Source: Nitrospiraceae bacterium
Lineage (GTDB): Bacteria; Nitrospirota; Thermodesulfovibrionia; UBA6902
NCBI GenBank assembly: GCA_003599025.1
Contig: QZIL01000064.1
Span: forward strand, 1-64,000
Length of the DNA: 64,000 bases
Direction of reading: 5' to 3'
This document shows positions 26,096 to 37,269 of this stretch, piece by piece (the stretch's first letter is position 1; each line of letters starts with the position of its first letter). A model generated the notes under the pieces. That model made no database searches, had not been told where the DNA came from, and saw only the letters and a list, made by a program, of their open reading frames with translations. A program made the translations under genes and the position numbers.

Positions 26096-26270
26096 AGTAC
26101 AAATATTTAGATACTGTCAGCGAGTTAGATTCAGAGCGTTACAGAGTTGCATAACCGATAAATCTCCGGGAGGACAAATAGAAGAAAATAAGCTGGCTGT
26201 CGTTTAAGGGAAAAAGGAATTAGCATTCAACACGTTTTTGGGGCCTTATTTTCTTAACTTATGTAATGAA

Positions 26271-29200
26271 ATGAATAAGAATATAAAACAAATCAGCAAT
26301 CCGTTCTCATCCGGCGGCGGTGGGAATAATTTCGAGACGAATGTCCAGGCAGCATTTGTTGCGATGATGTTGACAGGTGGCATGGTACCTTGTTTGCCTG
26401 CATGGCCCATTAGAAAAATTAAACTTCAAGGAAAATATACGGGTTTTGATACCGACGATCTGATTGTATTTACTAATAGCACTGACGGTAAAAAGGGAAG
26501 AAAACTCCTCGGTCAGGTCAAGCACACAATCAGTATTACTGCAAGCAATAAGGTATTCGGTGAAGTACTCCAAGCTGCCTGGAATGATTTCAATAATCCT
26601 AGAGTATTTACAGAAAAATCAGATGCGTTTGTACTTATTACAGGCCCCTTGAGTGTCTCAGATAACAATGATGTTCGGACAATTCTCGAGTGGGCTAAAG
26701 ATTCAGAGAATGCTGATGATTTTCTAATAAAGGTTAACAGGGCCAATTTCAGTAGTAAGACAAAAAGAAACAAGTTGCGGGTTTTTCAAAAGCATTTAAA
26801 GAATGCTAATGATGGGGTTGACCTTTCAGATGATGAGCTCTATCGATTCATGAAGAGTTTTCATTTACTAGGATTTGACCTCGATATAAAAGCAGGGGTT
26901 ACACATTCATTGCTTCAATCTTTGATCTGCCAATTTTCTTCGGAAAATGTTCAATCCATATGGGCACAGATCATCGAAGAAGTTCGGTCGGCAAATCAAA
27001 ACGCTGGAACTATCATAATAGATTCCCTGCCTGAAGAGCTTAGATCCGTATTTAAAAAACGGACTGTTGAAACAATCCCTCTTGACTTAACCCGTACACC
27101 GCCGGATCAAGAGATAACAGACTGGAATACTATTACCTATGCTTCCGCACTTGCGATTGCAAGTCTTCTGGGCTCTTGGAATGAAGGGTCCGATGCTGAT
27201 AAGGAAATAGCGGGACAACTTGCTAATGAAGAGTATAAAATCTGGATCAATAAAATGAGGGAAATTATACAAAAGCCGCAAAGCCCTCTAATGCTAAAAA
27301 ATGGAAAATGGTCAATTAAGGGGCGATTGAACTTGTGGCAAAAAATAGGGCCAAGATTGTTCGATGAACAATTAGACCGATTCAAACAGTGTGCTGTAGA
27401 TGTTTTGAGAGAACCTGAACCAAAATTTGAGCTGCCTCCCGAAGAACGATATGCAGCAAGTATCCATGGGAAGGTATCCCGCTATTCCGAATCATTGAAA
27501 AAAGGCATGGCTGAGAGCCTTGCCCTTCTTGGTAGCCATCCTCAATATTTTAACCATTGTTCGGCTGACAAGGCAGAGGCTATCGCTATACTTGCAATCA
27601 GAGAGATTTTTGAAGAAGCAGATTGGATTCTATGGGGAAGCTTAAACAGCGTGCTGCCGCTTTTAGCTGAGGCGTCTCCAGATCAGTTCCTTAATGCGGT
27701 CGAAAATGCTCTAATTCAAAAACCATGCCCATTCAATGATTTGTTTGCTCAAGAAGGAAATGGCATTACTAGTGGTAACTATATAACCGGATTGCTTTGG
27801 GCACTGGAAACACTTGCATGGGATGAACAATATTTAACGCGTGCAACCGTCATTTTTGGGGAACTGACCACCCTTGATCCAGGTGGCAACTGGGCGAATC
27901 GTCCTGCCAATTCTCTCTCAACAATTTATCTTCCCTGGTTTCCACAGACAACTGCACCCATTGAGAAGCGCAAAGTTGCGATTCAAACGCTTCAAAAGGA
28001 ATGTCCAGACGTTGCCTGGAAGTTGCTGCTGTCTTTATTACCTAATCAGTCTCAGACATCTATTGGCTCGCATAAGCCAGTTTGGCGATGGAAGATTCCG
28101 GAAAAACAGTCAAAGGAATTTAATGATCAGGAATATTGGGAACAAGTATCGTTTTACTCAGACATGGCTGTTGAAGCAGCGAAAGATGATTTATCCAGGC
28201 TTACCGAAATAATCGAGGATATTAGCGATTTGCCGCAACCTGCATTCGATAAACTTCTTTCATATCTTGAATCTGCAGAACTAACCGGCAAGCCGGAAGA
28301 AGATCGCCTCCCGTTGTGGTTGAAGCTTGTCGATATTATTGCAAAAAACAAAAGATATTCAGACACAAACTGGGCACTAAGTCCTGAACTGATAGGTAAA
28401 ATCAACATAATTGCCGAAAGTATTGCTCCACAAAACCCATTGAACCTATACCAGCGGCTTTTCAGTAATAGGGATTTCGATCTGTATGAAGAAAATGGCA
28501 ACTGGGAAGATCAGCAAAAGGAATTAGAGGAACGGCGCAAAAATGCAGTCCGGGATCTACTGACAAGGCATGGACTTAACGTAGTGTTTGATTTTGTAGA
28601 AGATGTTGAGTTTCCACGGCTTGTTGGGCTATCTTTAGGTGCCGTTGCTGAAGATAATGTTGAGTTAGTAATGCTTCCGCATTTATTGGAATCAGAAAAC
28701 AATAAGCTTACCCAATTTATAAGTGGATTTATCTGGAGTCGCTACCAAAACCAAGGCTGGACATGGGTTGATCAGACCAAAATATCGGACTGGTCGACGA
28801 AACGGATAGCACAATTCCTTATTAACTTGCCTTTTACTAATAAAACCTGGGAGCGTGCTAATCAACTATTAGCAGATCATGCCGCCGAGTATTGGAGCAA
28901 GGTAGCTGTGACACCATATGAAGCAGAAGGAAGACTGGAAGAGGCAATGGATAGATTAATGGAATACAACAGACCAAATGCAGCTCTCAGCTGTTTATAT
29001 AGTATGATTCACAATAAACAGCCATTCGATCAGTCTCGAACGATCAAAGCACTGCTTGCAGCAGTCAGGTCAAACGAACCGCCTTATACAATGGATGTGT
29101 ACCACATAGTTGAGATTATCAAGATATTGCAAAATGATCCTGAGACTAATCCCGATGATCTGTTCCGGGTCGAATGGGCCTATTTATCACTTCTTGAGCA

Positions 29201-29816
29201 GGATAGAGGCGCTTCTCCTAAGCTATTGGAGCGTCGTTTAGCATCTGATCCGGAATTCTTTTGTGAAATTATTCGATTGATTTATCGATCAAAGGACGAA
29301 AGTAAAACAGGAAAAGAACTTACTGAGGATCAGACAGCCATTGCTACTAATGCATTCCGACTGCTTCGTAAATGGCAAACGCCTCCTGGACTGCAGACTG
29401 ATGGTAGTTATTCAGCGGATCAGTTCAGTAAATGGGTTGATTCAGTTAAAAAGGCATGTTTAGAGTCAGGTCATCTTGAAGTGGCACTTTCTCATGTTGG
29501 CACTGTTCTTATTCATTGCCCACCAGAGCCCGGTGGTCTATGGATTAATAGCTCAGTAGCCGAGGCTTTAAATGCCAAGGATGCAGAAGACATCCGACGT
29601 GGCTTTCGTCTTGGAATATTTAACTCCCGTGGTGTCCACTGGGTTGACCCTACCGGAATGCCAGAAAAAGAACTTGCAGCCAAATATAGGCAAAATGCCA
29701 GTGATGCTGAGAACCATGGATATCAGCGATTAGCAGCAACTATCAGGAGTTTGGCTGATTCATACGATCGTGAAGCTGACCGCATTATTGACGACCACAA
29801 GCATGATGAGGAGTAA
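26271..29816 (+). CDS. large nuclease-like protein (PD-(D/E)XK-like N-terminus plus long helical C-terminus; Avs-like without evident NTPase)
   Basis: ATG at 26271 (MNKNIKQISNPF) within the 1192-aa ORF. N-term GGGGNNFETNVQAAFVAMMLTGG...KYTGFDTDDLIVF...RKLLGQVKHTI fits a D..QxK nuclease core; no GxxxxGK[ST] found by eye. Confidence 0.75.
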   Translation: MNKNIKQISNPFSSGGGGNNFETNVQAAFVAMMLTGGMVPCLPAWPIRKIKLQGKYTGFDTDDLIVFTNSTDGKKGRKLLGQVKHTISITASNKVFGEVLQAAWNDFNNPRVFTEKSDAFVLITGPLSVSDNNDVRTILEWAKDSENADDFLIKVNRANFSSKTKRNKLRVFQKHLKNANDGVDLSDDELYRFMKSFHLLGFDLDIKAGVTHSLLQSLICQFSSENVQSIWAQIIEEVRSANQNAGTIIIDSLPEELRSVFKKRTVETIPLDLTRTPPDQEITDWNTITYASALAIASLLGSWNEGSDADKEIAGQLANEEYKIWINKMREIIQKPQSPLMLKNGKWSIKGRLNLWQKIGPRLFDEQLDRFKQCAVDVLREPEPKFELPPEERYAASIHGKVSRYSESLKKGMAESLALLGSHPQYFNHCSADKAEAIAILAIREIFEEADWILWGSLNSVLPLLAEASPDQFLNAVENALIQKPCPFNDLFAQEGNGITSGNYITGLLWALETLAWDEQYLTRATVIFGELTTLDPGGNWANRPANSLSTIYLPWFPQTTAPIEKRKVAIQTLQKECPDVAWKLLLSLLPNQSQTSIGSHKPVWRWKIPEKQSKEFNDQEYWEQVSFYSDMAVEAAKDDLSRLTEIIEDISDLPQPAFDKLLSYLESAELTGKPEEDRLPLWLKLVDIIAKNKRYSDTNWALSPELIGKINIIAESIAPQNPLNLYQRLFSNRDFDLYEENGNWEDQQKELEERRKNAVRDLLTRHGLNVVFDFVEDVEFPRLVGLSLGAVAEDNVELVMLPHLLESENNKLTQFISGFIWSRYQNQGWTWVDQTKISDWSTKRIAQFLINLPFTNKTWERANQLLADHAAEYWSKVAVTPYEAEGRLEEAMDRLMEYNRPNAALSCLYSMIHNKQPFDQSRTIKALLAAVRSNEPPYTMDVYHIVEIIKILQNDPETNPDDLFRVEWAYLSLLEQDRGASPKLLERRLASDPEFFCEIIRLIYRSKDESKTGKELTEDQTAIATNAFRLLRKWQTPPGLQTDGSYSADQFSKWVDSVKKACLESGHLEVALSHVGTVLIHCPPEPGGLWINSSVAEALNAKDAEDIRRGFRLGIFNSRGVHWVDPTGMPEKELAAKYRQNASDAENHGYQRLAATIRSLADSYDREADRIIDDHKHDEE

Positions 29817-29818
29817 TC

Positions 29819-30466
29819 TTAAGGAACCTCAATTGTCCCCATCTCAATCTCCTTTATTATCCGCCTTTTCAAAACTCCGATAGAAACATCATAGCTCTTA
29901 ATTAAATTGCCCGCAATCATCTCAATTACATACTCCTGATATGACGCCTTTGGAAGATCCTGAGATCTGACGAATTCGATTTTCTGCATCATTGCCTTTA
30001 TCTGTTCACGGAAGTGCTTAAAAAGAAACTTTCTTGGTACCAGCAACAATCCGCCAAATGCATAAGCCTGATATTCTAACCAGCCATACGCTTCATCATC
30101 TACCCGGTCAATAAATTCCTTCCATGCAGCAACGCTTAACGGCCTGATATTCTCCATCAAATCCTTATGTATTACGTAGTGTCCTATCTCATGAGCAAGG
30201 GTAAAATAATATCTTGCAAGCCTATTATTGTAAATATACTCATCAACATAAATGCTCTTTAAATCTCCGGAAATAAATCCCTCGATATCAAAAGTGCGCT
30301 GCAAGTCGGGGAATGGAATGATATCTATCCCCAGTTTGAATTCTACGATCTTTTCAATAGGGACAGGCAATTCATTATCAATACCGTAATTGCTCAGAAA
30401 GTTCTCGGCATACGTATTAATTTTTTCGTACGAGAGGATAGGAGGTTGAAAAGCTGGTTCGGTCAT
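29819..30466 (-). CDS. ImmA/IrrE family metallo-endopeptidase
   Basis: 215 aa, HEIGHYVIH zinc motif; directly downstream of an XRE regulator. Confidence 0.88.
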   Translation of the reverse strand: MTEPAFQPPILSYEKINTYAENFLSNYGIDNELPVPIEKIVEFKLGIDIIPFPDLQRTFDIEGFISGDLKSIYVDEYIYNNRLARYYFTLAHEIGHYVIHKDLMENIRPLSVAAWKEFIDRVDDEAYGWLEYQAYAFGGLLLVPRKFLFKHFREQIKAMMQKIEFVRSQDLPKASYQEYVIEMIAGNLIKSYDVSIGVLKRRIIKEIEMGTIEVP

Positions 30467-30835
30467 CTATACTTTTTTAATTTCTTTCGCCAGCTTATTA
30501 AGTTGTTCCTTATTGAGTTTTTGCCCTCTTAAAGTTCTAAATACCAATGGCAGCTTTGATAATGCTTCCTCATCGGATAGTATCTCTTCAGGTATCCGAC
30601 CGGCACTTGCATGGGCCAGGTCAAAAAACTCATACCAGTCGTCAGATCCTTTTTTAATTCCCAAACATTTCGCATAATGCTCCAACTTCCCCTCAGTCGG
30701 CGGTTGTAACAGGCCCCTCTCAAGCTTACTGATATTCCCGGGATCAAGACCATTCTCCAGGCAAAACTGCCTTAGCGTTTTGTCCATCTCAATCCTCTTT
30801 TTTTTGAAAAATTCCCCGAAAAGACTGCTTCCCAT
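30467..30835 (-). CDS. XRE-family helix-turn-helix regulator
   Basis: 122 aa, LRQFCLENGLDPGNISKLERGLLQPPTEGKLEHYAKCLGI HTH pattern. Confidence 0.88.
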   Translation of the reverse strand: MGSSLFGEFFKKKRIEMDKTLRQFCLENGLDPGNISKLERGLLQPPTEGKLEHYAKCLGIKKGSDDWYEFFDLAHASAGRIPEEILSDEEALSKLPLVFRTLRGQKLNKEQLNKLAKEIKKV

Positions 30836-30850
30836 AATTGCACCTCCCCC

Positions 30851-30892
30851 GTTGTTATATTATTACAACACATCAGAGGAGTATTGTCAACC
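30851..30892 (-). promoter_or_regulatory. promoter with overlapping palindromic operator upstream of XRE/ImmA pair
   Basis: On minus: TTGACA-N17-TGTAATAATATAAC; imperfect palindrome GTTGTTATATTATTACAAC covers the -10 region. Confidence 0.6.
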
Positions 30893-31005
30893 TCCCAAAT
30901 GTCATCATATCATTTACATTTATCATTAATAATTTGGCATACTATTACCGCGATTAAAAAGCCGTTGTTAATATTACAGAAAAAGCAAAACCAGAGGACC
31001 GCCGT

Positions 31006-32886: not shown

Positions 32887-34677
32887 TCACATATTTACTT
32901 TCGTGATGACCCCATGGAGTTTCTCCGGAGGGAACTCATAGAATTTTATAAATGTGGGAGAGATTCTCTTGATGAGCGAGAATATCTTCCAGAAGATATT
33001 TTTAGCGGAAATGTCCTCCAGCCCGTAATAGACGGCCCGTTCATCAATACCCGCTTCCCTGAGGATCTTCTCTGCGGTCACGACTTCCATATATCCGAAC
33101 TGTATCTCAAAGGACCTGATCCCGTAAGCCATATTCTCCCTGTAAAAACCGGTAATACCGAAAGGGTCGTTCCTGCCGACTATAGAGACAAAGACGTTGT
33201 CTTCATAGATAATCCCGTGAGAGAACATTGTCTGCGTGATATATGCAGGAATGGTCTTTACGTCCCTTATGAGAAAGAGGGCAGTGCCTTTTATGAGAGG
33301 AGAGGTTGCGTAAGTCTCTTTGAATTTCGGTATGAATTCCTGAAAAGGCATAAACTTCATGGCATGGTAAAGCCTCTTCTGGCCCCGTGTATAAATGAAT
33401 ATCGTGACAAGCGGGATCATTGCGAGAATTATCGACCAGTATCCGCCGTGGGGGATCTTGTAGAAGTTGGCGGAAAGATACATGGCATCGACTCCTGTTA
33501 TCAGAAGCGACAACAAAGCGAGTCCGTGTTTTTTCTTGAAATAGAAAATACTCGTCATCATAATGCCTGTAATGGTCATATCACCGGTAACCGCCAGCCC
33601 GTATGCCGCGGCCAGGCTGGACGATTCCCTGAAAATCAGCATGATAAATAAAACTGCGCCAAGCATAAACCAGTTGACCGAGCTTATATAAATCTGGGAT
33701 TTTCTCTCGATGGACGTATAATCTACCTTGAACATCGGCATGAGCCGTGTTGTTACAGCCTGATAGATTATTGAAAACATCCCGCTTATCATAGCCTGTG
33801 AAGCAATAACCGTGGCCATGATGCTAAGCAGAAGAAAGGGAATGTATATATCTTTGGCATAATGAAAGACCATTTCAAACAGAACATTTTTGGCCTCAGG
33901 GTGCCTTAGTAAAAATGACCCCTGCCCGAGGTAATTGATGACGAGCACAACGAAAACACCACCCCATGCATTCCTTATGGGCTTTGCGCCAAGATGCCCC
34001 ATGTCCGCAAAAAGCGCCTCACCTCCGGTTGCGCATAATATGACCTCACCCAGCACAATAAATCCCATCCATCCGTGTGTTAAGATGAAATTAATGCCGT
34101 AGTACGGATTTAAGGCTTTAAGCACGAGCGGTGCTTCAAAGATCGAGACTATACCGGCAACAGCAAGCGCTGTAAACCACACACACATAATAGGCCCGAA
34201 TGCACCTGCCACTTTTTCCGTTCCCCTGCTCTGAATGGAAAATAAAAGGACTGCGATGAACATGGCAATAATTACAATGGAGGTCCTTGATATGTGCTCA
34301 AGCCCCGGTATCAGCATCAGACCCTCTACAGCACTCAGTATACTGATGGCAGGGGTGATGACGCCGTCGCCCATAAGAAGGGAAATCCCCACTAATGGCA
34401 ATACCGCAACAAGGACCCCCTTTCTGGACTTCATGAGGGACAAAAGCCTCTCTCTCAGAACTATCGTCCCGCCTTCCCCGCGGATGCTGAGACTCATAGC
34501 CAGCCATGTATACTGCAGGGAAACGAGGACCACCATCGTCCATACCAGCAGTGACATAATCCCGAGGATGTTATCAGCCGTGGGTTTAAGGAAGAGAAAT
34601 ACTACGGTTACTGTATAGATAGGACTGGTACCGATGTCTCCGAATACAAGTCCAAGTGCTTTTATAATGCCTTTCAT
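32887..34677 (-). CDS. kup: KUP-family potassium transporter (copy 1)
   Basis: 596 aa, LGLVFGDIGTSPIYT, GDGVITPAISILSAVEG, GEGGTIVL. Confidence 0.93.
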   Translation of the reverse strand: MKGIIKALGLVFGDIGTSPIYTVTVVFLFLKPTADNILGIMSLLVWTMVVLVSLQYTWLAMSLSIRGEGGTIVLRERLLSLMKSRKGVLVAVLPLVGISLLMGDGVITPAISILSAVEGLMLIPGLEHISRTSIVIIAMFIAVLLFSIQSRGTEKVAGAFGPIMCVWFTALAVAGIVSIFEAPLVLKALNPYYGINFILTHGWMGFIVLGEVILCATGGEALFADMGHLGAKPIRNAWGGVFVVLVINYLGQGSFLLRHPEAKNVLFEMVFHYAKDIYIPFLLLSIMATVIASQAMISGMFSIIYQAVTTRLMPMFKVDYTSIERKSQIYISSVNWFMLGAVLFIMLIFRESSSLAAAYGLAVTGDMTITGIMMTSIFYFKKKHGLALLSLLITGVDAMYLSANFYKIPHGGYWSIILAMIPLVTIFIYTRGQKRLYHAMKFMPFQEFIPKFKETYATSPLIKGTALFLIRDVKTIPAYITQTMFSHGIIYEDNVFVSIVGRNDPFGITGFYRENMAYGIRSFEIQFGYMEVVTAEKILREAGIDERAVYYGLEDISAKNIFWKIFSLIKRISPTFIKFYEFPPEKLHGVITKVNM

Positions 34678-34870
34678 AGTTGACAGATGGTCCCTTTTTT
34701 ACGATTTTCTTCAGGTCATACAATATCGCATTTCTGAGTCGTAAGGCAAGGCAGCAAACCCGGGACCTTAAGTAAAGCCGGCAAATCCAAACAAGATTTC
34801 CGGCACAGCAGCTTTTCTGATAATATTAGATCAGACTTAATAATTATTTTATAAGCAGGAGGCTTATTAA

Positions 34871-35416
34871 ATGCTAAACGATTTCCATATAGCAGAAGAA
34901 GTCCCCGGACTCTACAAGGTGGTCCCGCTCAATATTTTCAGGCGTACACCCGGCGTATATTTCGATAATGTACCTCTTAAGGCTTTTCCCAGGATTGACG
35001 CGATCGACAGGGTAATCCATGTCAGCAACGCGATTTCTCCCGGTCCAGTAGGCGATATAAAACGTCCCTGGTACATGCACACACATCAGGAAGACAACCT
35101 GATAGTGCTGTACGGTACGCGTTTTGTTGAGCTTTACACCAGACGGCACGGGCGTATCGAGCAGTTTAGTGTCACTCCTGAATTGATAAAAAAGGGGGAT
35201 AAGGTAATCTTTGAAGGGGCGGCGATGCTGTGCTGGCCTAACACTGTTTTTCACCGGGTACAAAGCCTTGAAGAGGGCTCTGCAGCCGTCAATTTTGCGG
35301 TCCATCACGAGGGTATCGACATGCGTACGAACTTCAGCATTTATGACGTGGACACTGCAACCGGGAAATTCCGGGTCATACGTGATGGTCATCTTGATCA
35401 GCCGGTAAAAGAATGA
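34871..35416 (+). CDS. cupin-like conserved protein
   Basis: 181 aa, WYMHTHQEDNLIVLYGTRFVELY cupin-like core; lies between the two kup genes on the opposite strand. Confidence 0.65.
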   Translation: MLNDFHIAEEVPGLYKVVPLNIFRRTPGVYFDNVPLKAFPRIDAIDRVIHVSNAISPGPVGDIKRPWYMHTHQEDNLIVLYGTRFVELYTRRHGRIEQFSVTPELIKKGDKVIFEGAAMLCWPNTVFHRVQSLEEGSAAVNFAVHHEGIDMRTNFSIYDVDTATGKFRVIRDGHLDQPVKE

Positions 35417-35463
35417 GTGAAAATTATCTAAATGACCGGATTACAGATCCTGTGTTATGATCC

Positions 35464-37269
35464 TCACATCGTCACCTTTGTAATGACCCCGTGGAGTTTC
35501 TCCGGAGGGAACTCATAGAATTTTATGAAAGAAGGCATGACCCTCTTGATCAGGGAAAATATCTTCCAGACCGGGTTTCCAGCCGAGATGTCTTCGAGCC
35601 CGTAATAGACCGCCCGCTCATCAATCCCAGCCTCCCTGAGGATATCATCTGCGGCTATAACTTCCATGTAGCCGAACTGTATCTCAAAAGACCTGAGACC
35701 CGGGGCCATATCATCCCTGTAAAAACCTGTGATCCCGAACGGGTCATTCCTGCCGACAATAGATACAAAGATGTTGTCTTCATAGATTATGCCGTGAGAA
35801 AACATGGTCTGTGTTATGTATGAAGGGATGCTTCTGACGTCCCGGATCAGAAAAAGGGCTGTGCCTCTTGTCCTTGGAGAGGTGGCGTAAGTCTCCTTGA
35901 ACCTGGGGATGAATTCCTGAAACGGCATAAAATTCATCACCCTGTACAGCCTCCTCTGCCCCTGAGTATAGACAAGTATCAGGGAAAGCGGGACCATCGC
36001 CAGTATTATAGACCAGTATCCGCCGTGGGGGACCTTGTAGAAGTTCGCGGAAAGATACAGGGCATCAACCCCTGTGATGAAAAATGAAAGCAGCGAAAGC
36101 AGCGGCTTTTTTCTGAGATAGAAAATCCAGGTCATCATGATCCCGGTTATCGTCATTGTTCCGGTGACAGCAAGGCCGTACGCAGCAGCAAGACTGTGTG
36201 ATTCCCTGAATTCAAGCATAATGAATACAACAGAGGCGAGCAGACACCAGTTGACTGATGAAATGTATATCTGGGACTTTCTTTCAGTAGATGTGTAAGC
36301 AACTTTCAGGGGAGGCATCATACGTATTGTTATGGCCTGAAAAATAATGGAAAACATCCCGCTGATCATGGCCTGTGAAGCGATTACAGTAGCCGTAATA
36401 CTCAGAAGCAGAAAAGGCACATACAGGACTTCTGCATAATAAAAGACCATTTCAAAAAGAATGTTTTTTGACCCGGGATGACTTAACAGAAACGCGCCCT
36501 GTCCGAGATAATTCAGGACCAGTGCGGCAAACACCGTCATCCATGCCTGACGAATCGGTTTTGCTCCGAGATGTCCCATGTCCGCGTAAAGTGCCTCTCC
36601 GCCTGTAGCACACAGGATAATTTCACTGAGCGCTATATACCCCTTCCATCCGTTTTCAAGGAGAAAACTGATCCCGTAGTAAGGGTTAAAGGCCTTAAGC
36701 ACCTCAGGGGCCTCTAAGATAGCAATCAGGCCGAATAAGGCAAGGGCAATAAACCATACGCCCATGAAGGGGCCGAAGGCAACAGAGACTTTTTCTGTCC
36801 CCTTACTCTGTATTAAAAACAGGGCCACTGCTATTAACACTGCGGTCGCTACTATGGCGTTTCTTGATATGTCATGAAATCCCGGTATTAATAACGCGCC
36901 TTCAACAGCACTCAGTATACTGATGGCAGGGGTAATAACACCGTCTCCGATCAGAAGCGATATACCGGCAAAAGAAAGCATTGTGACAAACAATGTCTTT
37001 TTTTTATTTGCAACAAGGGGAGACAGGATCTCCTTTAGCACTATAGTCCCGCCCTCACCTCTAATACTCAGACCCATGGCAAGCCAGTCATACTGAATAA
37101 AAACAAGCAGGACAAGGGTCCAGATTATCAGACAGAGTACACCGACAATATTATCAGCTGTGGGCTGAAGGAGAAGAAATACTACGGACAGCGTGTAGAT
37201 AGGACTTGTGCCAATATCTCCGAACACAAGTCCGAGTGCTTTAATAACACCCTTATTAATTTTAGCCAT
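35464..37269 (-). CDS. kup: KUP-family potassium transporter (copy 2)
   Basis: 601 aa, strongly similar to copy 1 (LGLVFGDIGTSPIYTLSVVFLLLQPTADNI, GDGVITPAISILSAVEG). Confidence 0.93.
   Translation of the reverse strand: MAKINKGVIKALGLVFGDIGTSPIYTLSVVFLLLQPTADNIVGVLCLIIWTLVLLVFIQYDWLAMGLSIRGEGGTIVLKEILSPLVANKKKTLFVTMLSFAGISLLIGDGVITPAISILSAVEGALLIPGFHDISRNAIVATAVLIAVALFLIQSKGTEKVSVAFGPFMGVWFIALALFGLIAILEAPEVLKAFNPYYGISFLLENGWKGYIALSEIILCATGGEALYADMGHLGAKPIRQAWMTVFAALVLNYLGQGAFLLSHPGSKNILFEMVFYYAEVLYVPFLLLSITATVIASQAMISGMFSIIFQAITIRMMPPLKVAYTSTERKSQIYISSVNWCLLASVVFIMLEFRESHSLAAAYGLAVTGTMTITGIMMTWIFYLRKKPLLSLLSFFITGVDALYLSANFYKVPHGGYWSIILAMVPLSLILVYTQGQRRLYRVMNFMPFQEFIPRFKETYATSPRTRGTALFLIRDVRSIPSYITQTMFSHGIIYEDNIFVSIVGRNDPFGITGFYRDDMAPGLRSFEIQFGYMEVIAADDILREAGIDERAVYYGLEDISAGNPVWKIFSLIKRVMPSFIKFYEFPPEKLHGVITKVTM

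Follow-up and report, generated by a model that had tools for sequence, protein, structure and literature searches.

Can an immune receptor lose its NTPase and still sense and respond? In STAND and NLR immunity the NTPase is held to turn recognition into oligomerisation, and the question is raised by a gene in a 64,000-nt stretch of Nitrospiraceae bacterium DNA (the window; contig QZIL01000064.1, positions 1 to 64,000, assembly GCA_003599025.1). An original prediction, made from the letters of this DNA, had proposed an Avs-like protein with a nuclease-like N-terminus (PD-(D/E)XK, Cap4-like) and a repeat sensor lacking the ATPase, possibly as a natural deletion derivative; the N-terminal and mid-protein strings it quoted are present as written. 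Our analysis points to a protein that is very likely an immune sensor–effector, and, somewhat less firmly, probably one whose STAND NTPase switch was lost.

The N-terminal part, residues 1–262, is predicted from profile comparison and fold to be a PD-(D/E)XK nuclease like those of Cap4, LmuA and Avs3, as had been proposed. The AlphaFold2 (AF2) model of this part (mean pLDDT 72) runs helix, three strands, helix, strand, helix, so that an α-β3-α-β-α core is present with the D and QxK motif at the expected places, and E22, D62, D63, Q82 and K84 are invariant across alignments A2 and A4. Foldseek searches with the model returned LmuA on DNA (1e-6), Cap4 (1e-5), Avs3 (4.5e-5) and HamA, with E-values in the range 1e-6 to 1e-4 and the LmuA tetramer on DNA as the best fold match. 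Residues 1–262 also align with the N-termini of plasmid-borne Avs4-like and NACHT STAND proteins (hhalign probability 99.9, E 2.1e-33 against the Avs4-like N-termini), and in the STAND proteins with the same nuclease a Walker A motif comes next, at about residue 313. Single-protein searches of Pfam, PADLOC, NCBIfam and the PDB gave nothing significant for this protein alone, and profile searches of the PDB with alignments A1 and A2 gave no match. A search of its own genome with PF14130 (Cap4 nuclease) found no match, but its control had none anywhere, so that this result says nothing either way. The same nuclease module was seen on a Burkholderia cepacia plasmid (L020) at the head of a TPR-GreAB-C-PIN protein without Walker A, whose gene is followed by a SIR2 gene.

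No NTPase follows. Neither GxxxxGK[ST] nor GxxxxGK matches anywhere in the 1,181 residues, as the original prediction had noted for the former, and the AF2 model of residues 281–1181 (901 residues, mean pLDDT 86.9), which is all helical bar a few short strands, contains no Rossmann or P-loop fold, making a hidden or divergent NTPase unlikely. What comes after the nuclease instead is a short low-confidence linker, a winged-helix-like unit of three helices and a two-stranded wing (residues about 291–349 in this model), and a HEAT-like helical solenoid, which together with the nuclease fits the proposed combination of nuclease and repeat sensor lacking an ATPase. In STAND proteins a winged helix comes after the NTPase. 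Judging by the predicted fold and by the alignments with type B and PD-λ-4 proteins described below, the winged-helix-like unit may be the counterpart of that post-NTPase domain, in keeping with the earlier remark that the segment after the nuclease resembles a post-NTPase part. The Foldseek matches of the sensor were to HEAT proteins, karyopherins and CAND1 among them, with low TM-scores, and a viral-structure search with it gave no match below 1e-3. The sensor is a member of phrog_18693 (residues 281–1171, E 3.9e-119), whose profile of 1,258 positions has the layout of type B, which it matches over the full length, rather than that of the nuclease-fused form. The solenoid is well predicted except for a low-confidence stretch that contains, at residues ~390–401, a strongly conserved ERYAASIHGK segment, which relatives have at the corresponding position. 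The sensors of some relatives match GK[ST] here (AASIHGK[ST]), and this candidate P-loop was rejected for its helical context and the lack of a preceding strand.

The architecture is no product of chance, since it recurs at full length in about 12 distinct relatives and is under purifying selection, dN/dS (the ratio of nonsynonymous to synonymous substitution) against relative L002 being 0.21 and alike over the full length. The reading frame is intact from ATG 26271 to the stop at 29816; an in-frame TTG lies at 26238, and ATG 26271 matches the start in L002 (73% identical).

Among 396 genomes of its own phylum 19 have the sensor. In other samples the counts are 7 of 369, 9 of 289 and 1 of 82 genomes, and 4 of 295 in an archaeal phylum; 45 plasmids carry a whole or partial match to the protein, and the sensor also occurs in prophage-like viral contigs. 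Four arrangements occur. Type A, that of the window, has the Cap4/LmuA-like nuclease fused to the sensor with the NTPase gone. In type B, a different N-terminal part, whose invariant GxDG..WE..K signature suggests PD-(D/E)XK, leads into a P-loop-less domain with sequences like AES..EA.AFV at the P-loop site, often with a helix-turn-helix (HTH) domain in front. In type C the sensor carries only a short Gly/Asn-rich N-terminal motif, and a HetE-N gene of 106–120 aa lies upstream (PF20701; 1.5e-40, 5.6e-33 and 1.1e-38). The C-terminus of this HetE-N protein carries a motif similar to the sensor N-terminus (e.g. QNHSGTGDNVGGN and QNHTGTGHNVAGD), an amyloid-like Gly/Asn-rich motif being shared in this way at three loci (L011, L055 and L056). 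Paired motifs at the receptor N-terminus and the effector C-terminus of neighbouring genes are a hallmark of bacterial amyloid signalling (PMC12261475), and the two type C proteins may be linked by such an amyloid-like signalling motif. In type D the upstream reading frame contains RNxxYH and looks HEPN-like by eye, without a Pfam hit. No P-loop precedes the sensor in types B, C or D, and all seven PD-λ-4-like rows have GxxGxGKT. To judge from these arrangements, the effectors appear to have been swapped on a constant sensor, with a nuclease in type A, a HetE-N partner in type C and a HEPN-like protein in type D.

In four relatives the effector and the sensor are separate genes, with a nuclease effector in L027 and L028 and a HEPN-like effector in L040 and L041, and the four form one clade (support 99). 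The effector frame extends through the first two winged-helix helices and ends 11 nt inside the sensor frame (ATGGATTATAA, ATGAATTTTGA), which places the gene break between helices 2 and 3. The sensor ATG is preceded at ~7 nt by a Shine-Dalgarno-like GAGG or AGGAGG. Programmed frameshifting was considered here and is less likely than two coupled genes, because a start codon with a well-spaced Shine-Dalgarno-like sequence is present. These four loci indicate that the effector can be a polypeptide apart from the sensor, with the junction in the winged-helix unit.

Where the NTPase may have gone is suggested by PD-λ-4, which was obtained by selecting in E. coli for systems that act against phage (Vassallo 2022, PMC9519451) and is listed with a P-loop NTPase (PMC10952713). 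The PADLOC PD-lambda-4_A model found no match in the protein of the window and a weak but collinear one in the type B protein L010 (5e-4). A PD-λ-4-like set, collected with this model plus looser relatives, combines a D..QxK N-terminus with an intact GxxGxGKT (GLSGVGKT). By hhalign, type B aligns with this set end-to-end (probability 99.4, E 1.6e-21) and by its N-terminus alone (96.2, 2.5e-9), and the sensor alignment A5 does so over 480 columns (97.2, 3e-11), whereas reversed and column-shuffled controls scored ≤ 0.4. These alignments argue for a remote but clear homology between the sensor and the C-terminal part of PD-lambda-4_A. The link from type B to an NTPase comes from the PD-λ-4-like proteins and not from the Avs4-like NTPase, a comparison in which hhalign gave no support; Avs4-like proteins and the PD-λ-4 group align with each other in the NTPase region only. 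A match of the type B N-terminus to a de novo ATPase (2.3e-3) fits a P-loop-like fold and is too weak to be used alone.

Taken together, the relatives form a graded series in which the P-loop is intact (PD-λ-4-like), eroded (type B, collinear) or gone with the whole NTPase (types A, C and D), and it is this series that makes the proposed deletion concrete. Placing the types on an unrooted tree of 49 sensors takes at least 6 changes; close-group A, C and D form one set (support 99) inside branches that bear type B, types C and D lying within A, and the far type A rows L007 and L091 sit on long branches of uncertain place. The simplest reading, from which we infer the direction, would be that an intact P-loop was eroded and then removed as a new nuclease was fused in.

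Starting from the computed domain content, family link and lack of an NTPase, we infer the following course of events. The solenoid would bind an invader-derived ligand, either a phage protein or a nucleic acid, and binding would free or cluster the nuclease via the winged-helix hinge. The nucleases would then meet as dimers or tetramers, like LmuA and Cap4, and cut DNA, with oligomerisation driven by the ligand, the sensor or the nuclease itself in place of ATP-driven assembly. The nuclease is in all likelihood the output of the protein; its target is probably DNA, and activation without any ATPase seems on balance the better supported mode. Several points weigh against this reading. For types A to D, defence, nuclease activity and a ligand are presumed, and the nuclease was modelled with moderate confidence (pLDDT 72, TM-score to known nucleases < 0.5). 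The direct homology between the sensor and PD-lambda-4_A spans model positions 159–681, the winged-helix part aligning via type B only. The data do not separate loss of the NTPase from an independent fusion of nuclease and sensor, and the tree is unrooted. Finally, an ATPase from elsewhere in the genome could act in trans.

For the last step the main rival is a release of the kind known for LmuA of Lamassu, in which the sensor would hold the nuclease as an inactive monomer until the ligand unmasks it, and nucleases of different chains would tetramerise on DNA with no sensor oligomer. The match to the DNA-bound LmuA tetramer agrees with this, as does the split clade, in which the effector could leave the sensor because it is a separate polypeptide. 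However, effector and sensor share one chain in the protein of the window, and the type C sensor with its amyloid-like nucleation motif fits clustering better, so that we regard release as unlikely, though worth keeping in view. Much the same standing is given to direct restriction of plasmid or phage DNA by a large nuclease without any signal protein, the solenoid binding DNA or a DNA-end structure. A nuclease of the DNA-cutting Cap4/LmuA class, the winged-helix-like domain and the proposal that inactive STAND domains are nucleic-acid receptors (PMC8195603) would all suit it, but the same sensor also pairs with non-nuclease partners (HetE-N and HEPN-like), which favours a general sensor, and the HEAT-like solenoid resembles protein-binding karyopherins. 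It is improbable that the NTPase step is kept and supplied by another protein: the fission of effector and sensor in relatives does mean that parts can be unlinked, but apart from the gene of the protein itself nothing is common to the eleven type A neighbourhoods, hence no conserved partner ATPase in cis, and type B has a P-loop-less domain rather than a live NTPase at that place. A chance fusion or a decaying gene without function, of which the broken relatives L001 (frameshift) and G005 (internal TGA) might be a sign, is contradicted by the selection analysis, by an invariant active site and by the same architecture in several phyla, and can be dismissed.

The genomic setting of the sensor genes is mobile and patchy, beside Abi, HsdR, SIR2 and AbiEii genes; type A was found next to Abi and superinfection-exclusion genes on a Shewanella plasmid, elsewhere close to a type I HsdR gene, and on prophage-like contigs. 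A homologue is carried by the Shewanella baltica plasmid NC_017580. In the window the adjoining genes encode CorA, an ImmA/IrrE peptidase, an HTH protein and a MurJ-like protein (Table 1). The insert between corA and murJ is missing in the congeners G209 and G769, where the gap measures 18 to about 80 nt, and the site holds other cargo in G366 and G368. As a side observation, this junction (L076, L077, L078 and L079) is variable in the genus, being empty in 2 genomes and occupied by a VapBC-like pair in 1 and by ~8 kb of other genes in 1. The HTH and ImmA/IrrE genes form a CapH/CapP-like operon (29819–30835, minus strand) tail to tail with the nuclease–sensor gene, with 2 nt between them, and a similar pair adjoins a type B gene of Adhaeribacter (L013). 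The pair was rejected as a component of the system, as other type A genes lack such neighbours. A promoter and terminator scan of the insert gave no more sites than shuffled sequence. Elsewhere in the window, positions 32887–37269 on the minus strand hold two similar potassium-transporter-like genes (Kup-type by eye) with a small plus-strand gene in between.

Table 1. Features of the nuclease–sensor gene and its insert, in positions of the window
Feature	Position	Strand	Basis
Nuclease–sensor protein, whole gene, 1,181 aa, type A	26271..29816	+	Reading frame and translation; dN/dS against L002
Predicted PD-(D/E)XK nuclease (Cap4/LmuA/Avs3-like), residues 1–262, C-terminal half helical	26271..27056	+	AF2, Foldseek, hhalign
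E22, invariant glutamate of first helix	26334..26336	+	Alignments A2, A4
D62-D63, predicted metal-binding aspartate(s)	26454..26459	+	Invariant in A2, A4; just before model strand 64–69
Q82-V83-K84, QxK half of predicted active site	26514..26522	+	Invariant in A2, A4; end of strand 76–84
Low-confidence linker, residues ~263–288, at site of NTPase in STAND relatives (among L016–L023)	27057..27134	+	pLDDT < 50 at 264–300 in N-terminal model
Winged-helix-like domain, residues ~289–350, three helices then two-stranded wing	27135..27320	+	DSSP of AF2 model, elements 11–69
HEAT-like helical solenoid, presumed sensor, residues ~351–1181	27321..29813	+	AF2, Foldseek, phrog_18693, hhalign
ImmA/IrrE (M78) peptidase, CapP-like; possible regulator	29819..30466	-	PF06114 1e-8; PADLOC capP 6e-13
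HTH repressor-like protein, operon partner of peptidase	30467..30835	-	HTH_3 / HTH_19 6e-4, under Pfam cut-offs; weak capH match
Variable insert between corA and murJ carrying the gene	26096..30910		Comparison with same-genus genomes

If the STAND switch has indeed been lost, both the contribution of the NTPase and NTPase-free firing become directly testable in a natural series that has the NTPase intact, eroded or gone while the sensor is conserved and selected for. It also gives phrog_18693 a candidate function. A broader proposal, to which we give somewhat less than even weight, is an NTPase-free NLR-like class of receptors, in which one bacterial and archaeal solenoid sensor by itself would activate four or more kinds of effector (two nucleases, a HetE-N partner signalled to by amyloid and a HEPN-like RNase) and, in the fission form, would be bound by the effector completing the winged helix. 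Such a class would show that the STAND switch can be lost with immunity kept.

Compared with catalogued systems, the family joins two of them, the Avs4-type nucleases and PD-λ-4. Avs4-like STAND proteins (PADLOC PDLC02169) have the N-terminal nuclease in common with the protein of the window, L017 scoring 1e-114 for Avs4, but carry Walker A directly after it and end in an unrelated C-terminus. Of the Avs layout, the protein has the N-terminal nuclease effector and lacks the Walker A-bearing STAND NTPase that would stand between it and the sensor. It has no PADLOC match to Avs, and its sensor scores an hhalign probability of 0.6 against the Avs4-like group (A5 vs A7), Avs1–3 and 5 having been compared via PADLOC and the PDB. 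The label Avs-like therefore holds for the nuclease and fails for the sensor, whose affinity is with PD-lambda-4_A. To PD-lambda-4 protein A (PADLOC PDLC03991) the sensor half appears homologous, and type B is collinear over the full length, whereas the nuclease-like N-terminus of PD-lambda-4-like proteins, which is of another kind, and their intact P-loop are both absent here.

The nuclease fold class is that of Lamassu LmuA, CBASS Cap4, the Avs3 nuclease and Hachiman HamA by Foldseek. The controlling element is an SMC-like complex for LmuA, a SAVED domain for Cap4, a STAND NTPase for the Avs3 nuclease and a helicase for HamA. Cap4 has its SAVED domain and a nearby cyclic-nucleotide synthase, in contrast to the all-helical C-terminus and other adjacent genes found here, and Lamassu has the SMC-like partner gene LmuB, whereas type A neighbourhoods share no such gene. 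TPR-GreAB-C-PIN proteins, in which varied N-terminal effectors (REase and HetE-type included) precede a constant C-terminus without NTPase (PMC8195603), resemble the present family in that variety, and one of them, L020, has the same nuclease module; their TPR, GreAB-C and PIN C-terminus is unrelated, with no such Pfam hits in the protein of the window. The iSTAND and iSTAND2 modules of MoxR-vWA ternary systems are a precedent for inactive STAND modules as sensors (PMC7159879, PMC8195603), and type B appears to have an inactive STAND module of this sort; however, no MoxR-vWA genes were seen around the present family, and type A retains no STAND remnant bar the winged-helix-like unit. No publication on an NTPase-free nuclease–sensor architecture was found in the literature searched, outside which most subscription papers lay. 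The sensor family was already known as phrog_18693, with its function unassigned in PHROG, as were the nuclease class and PD-λ-4; what appears to be new is their NTPase-free nuclease–sensor form.

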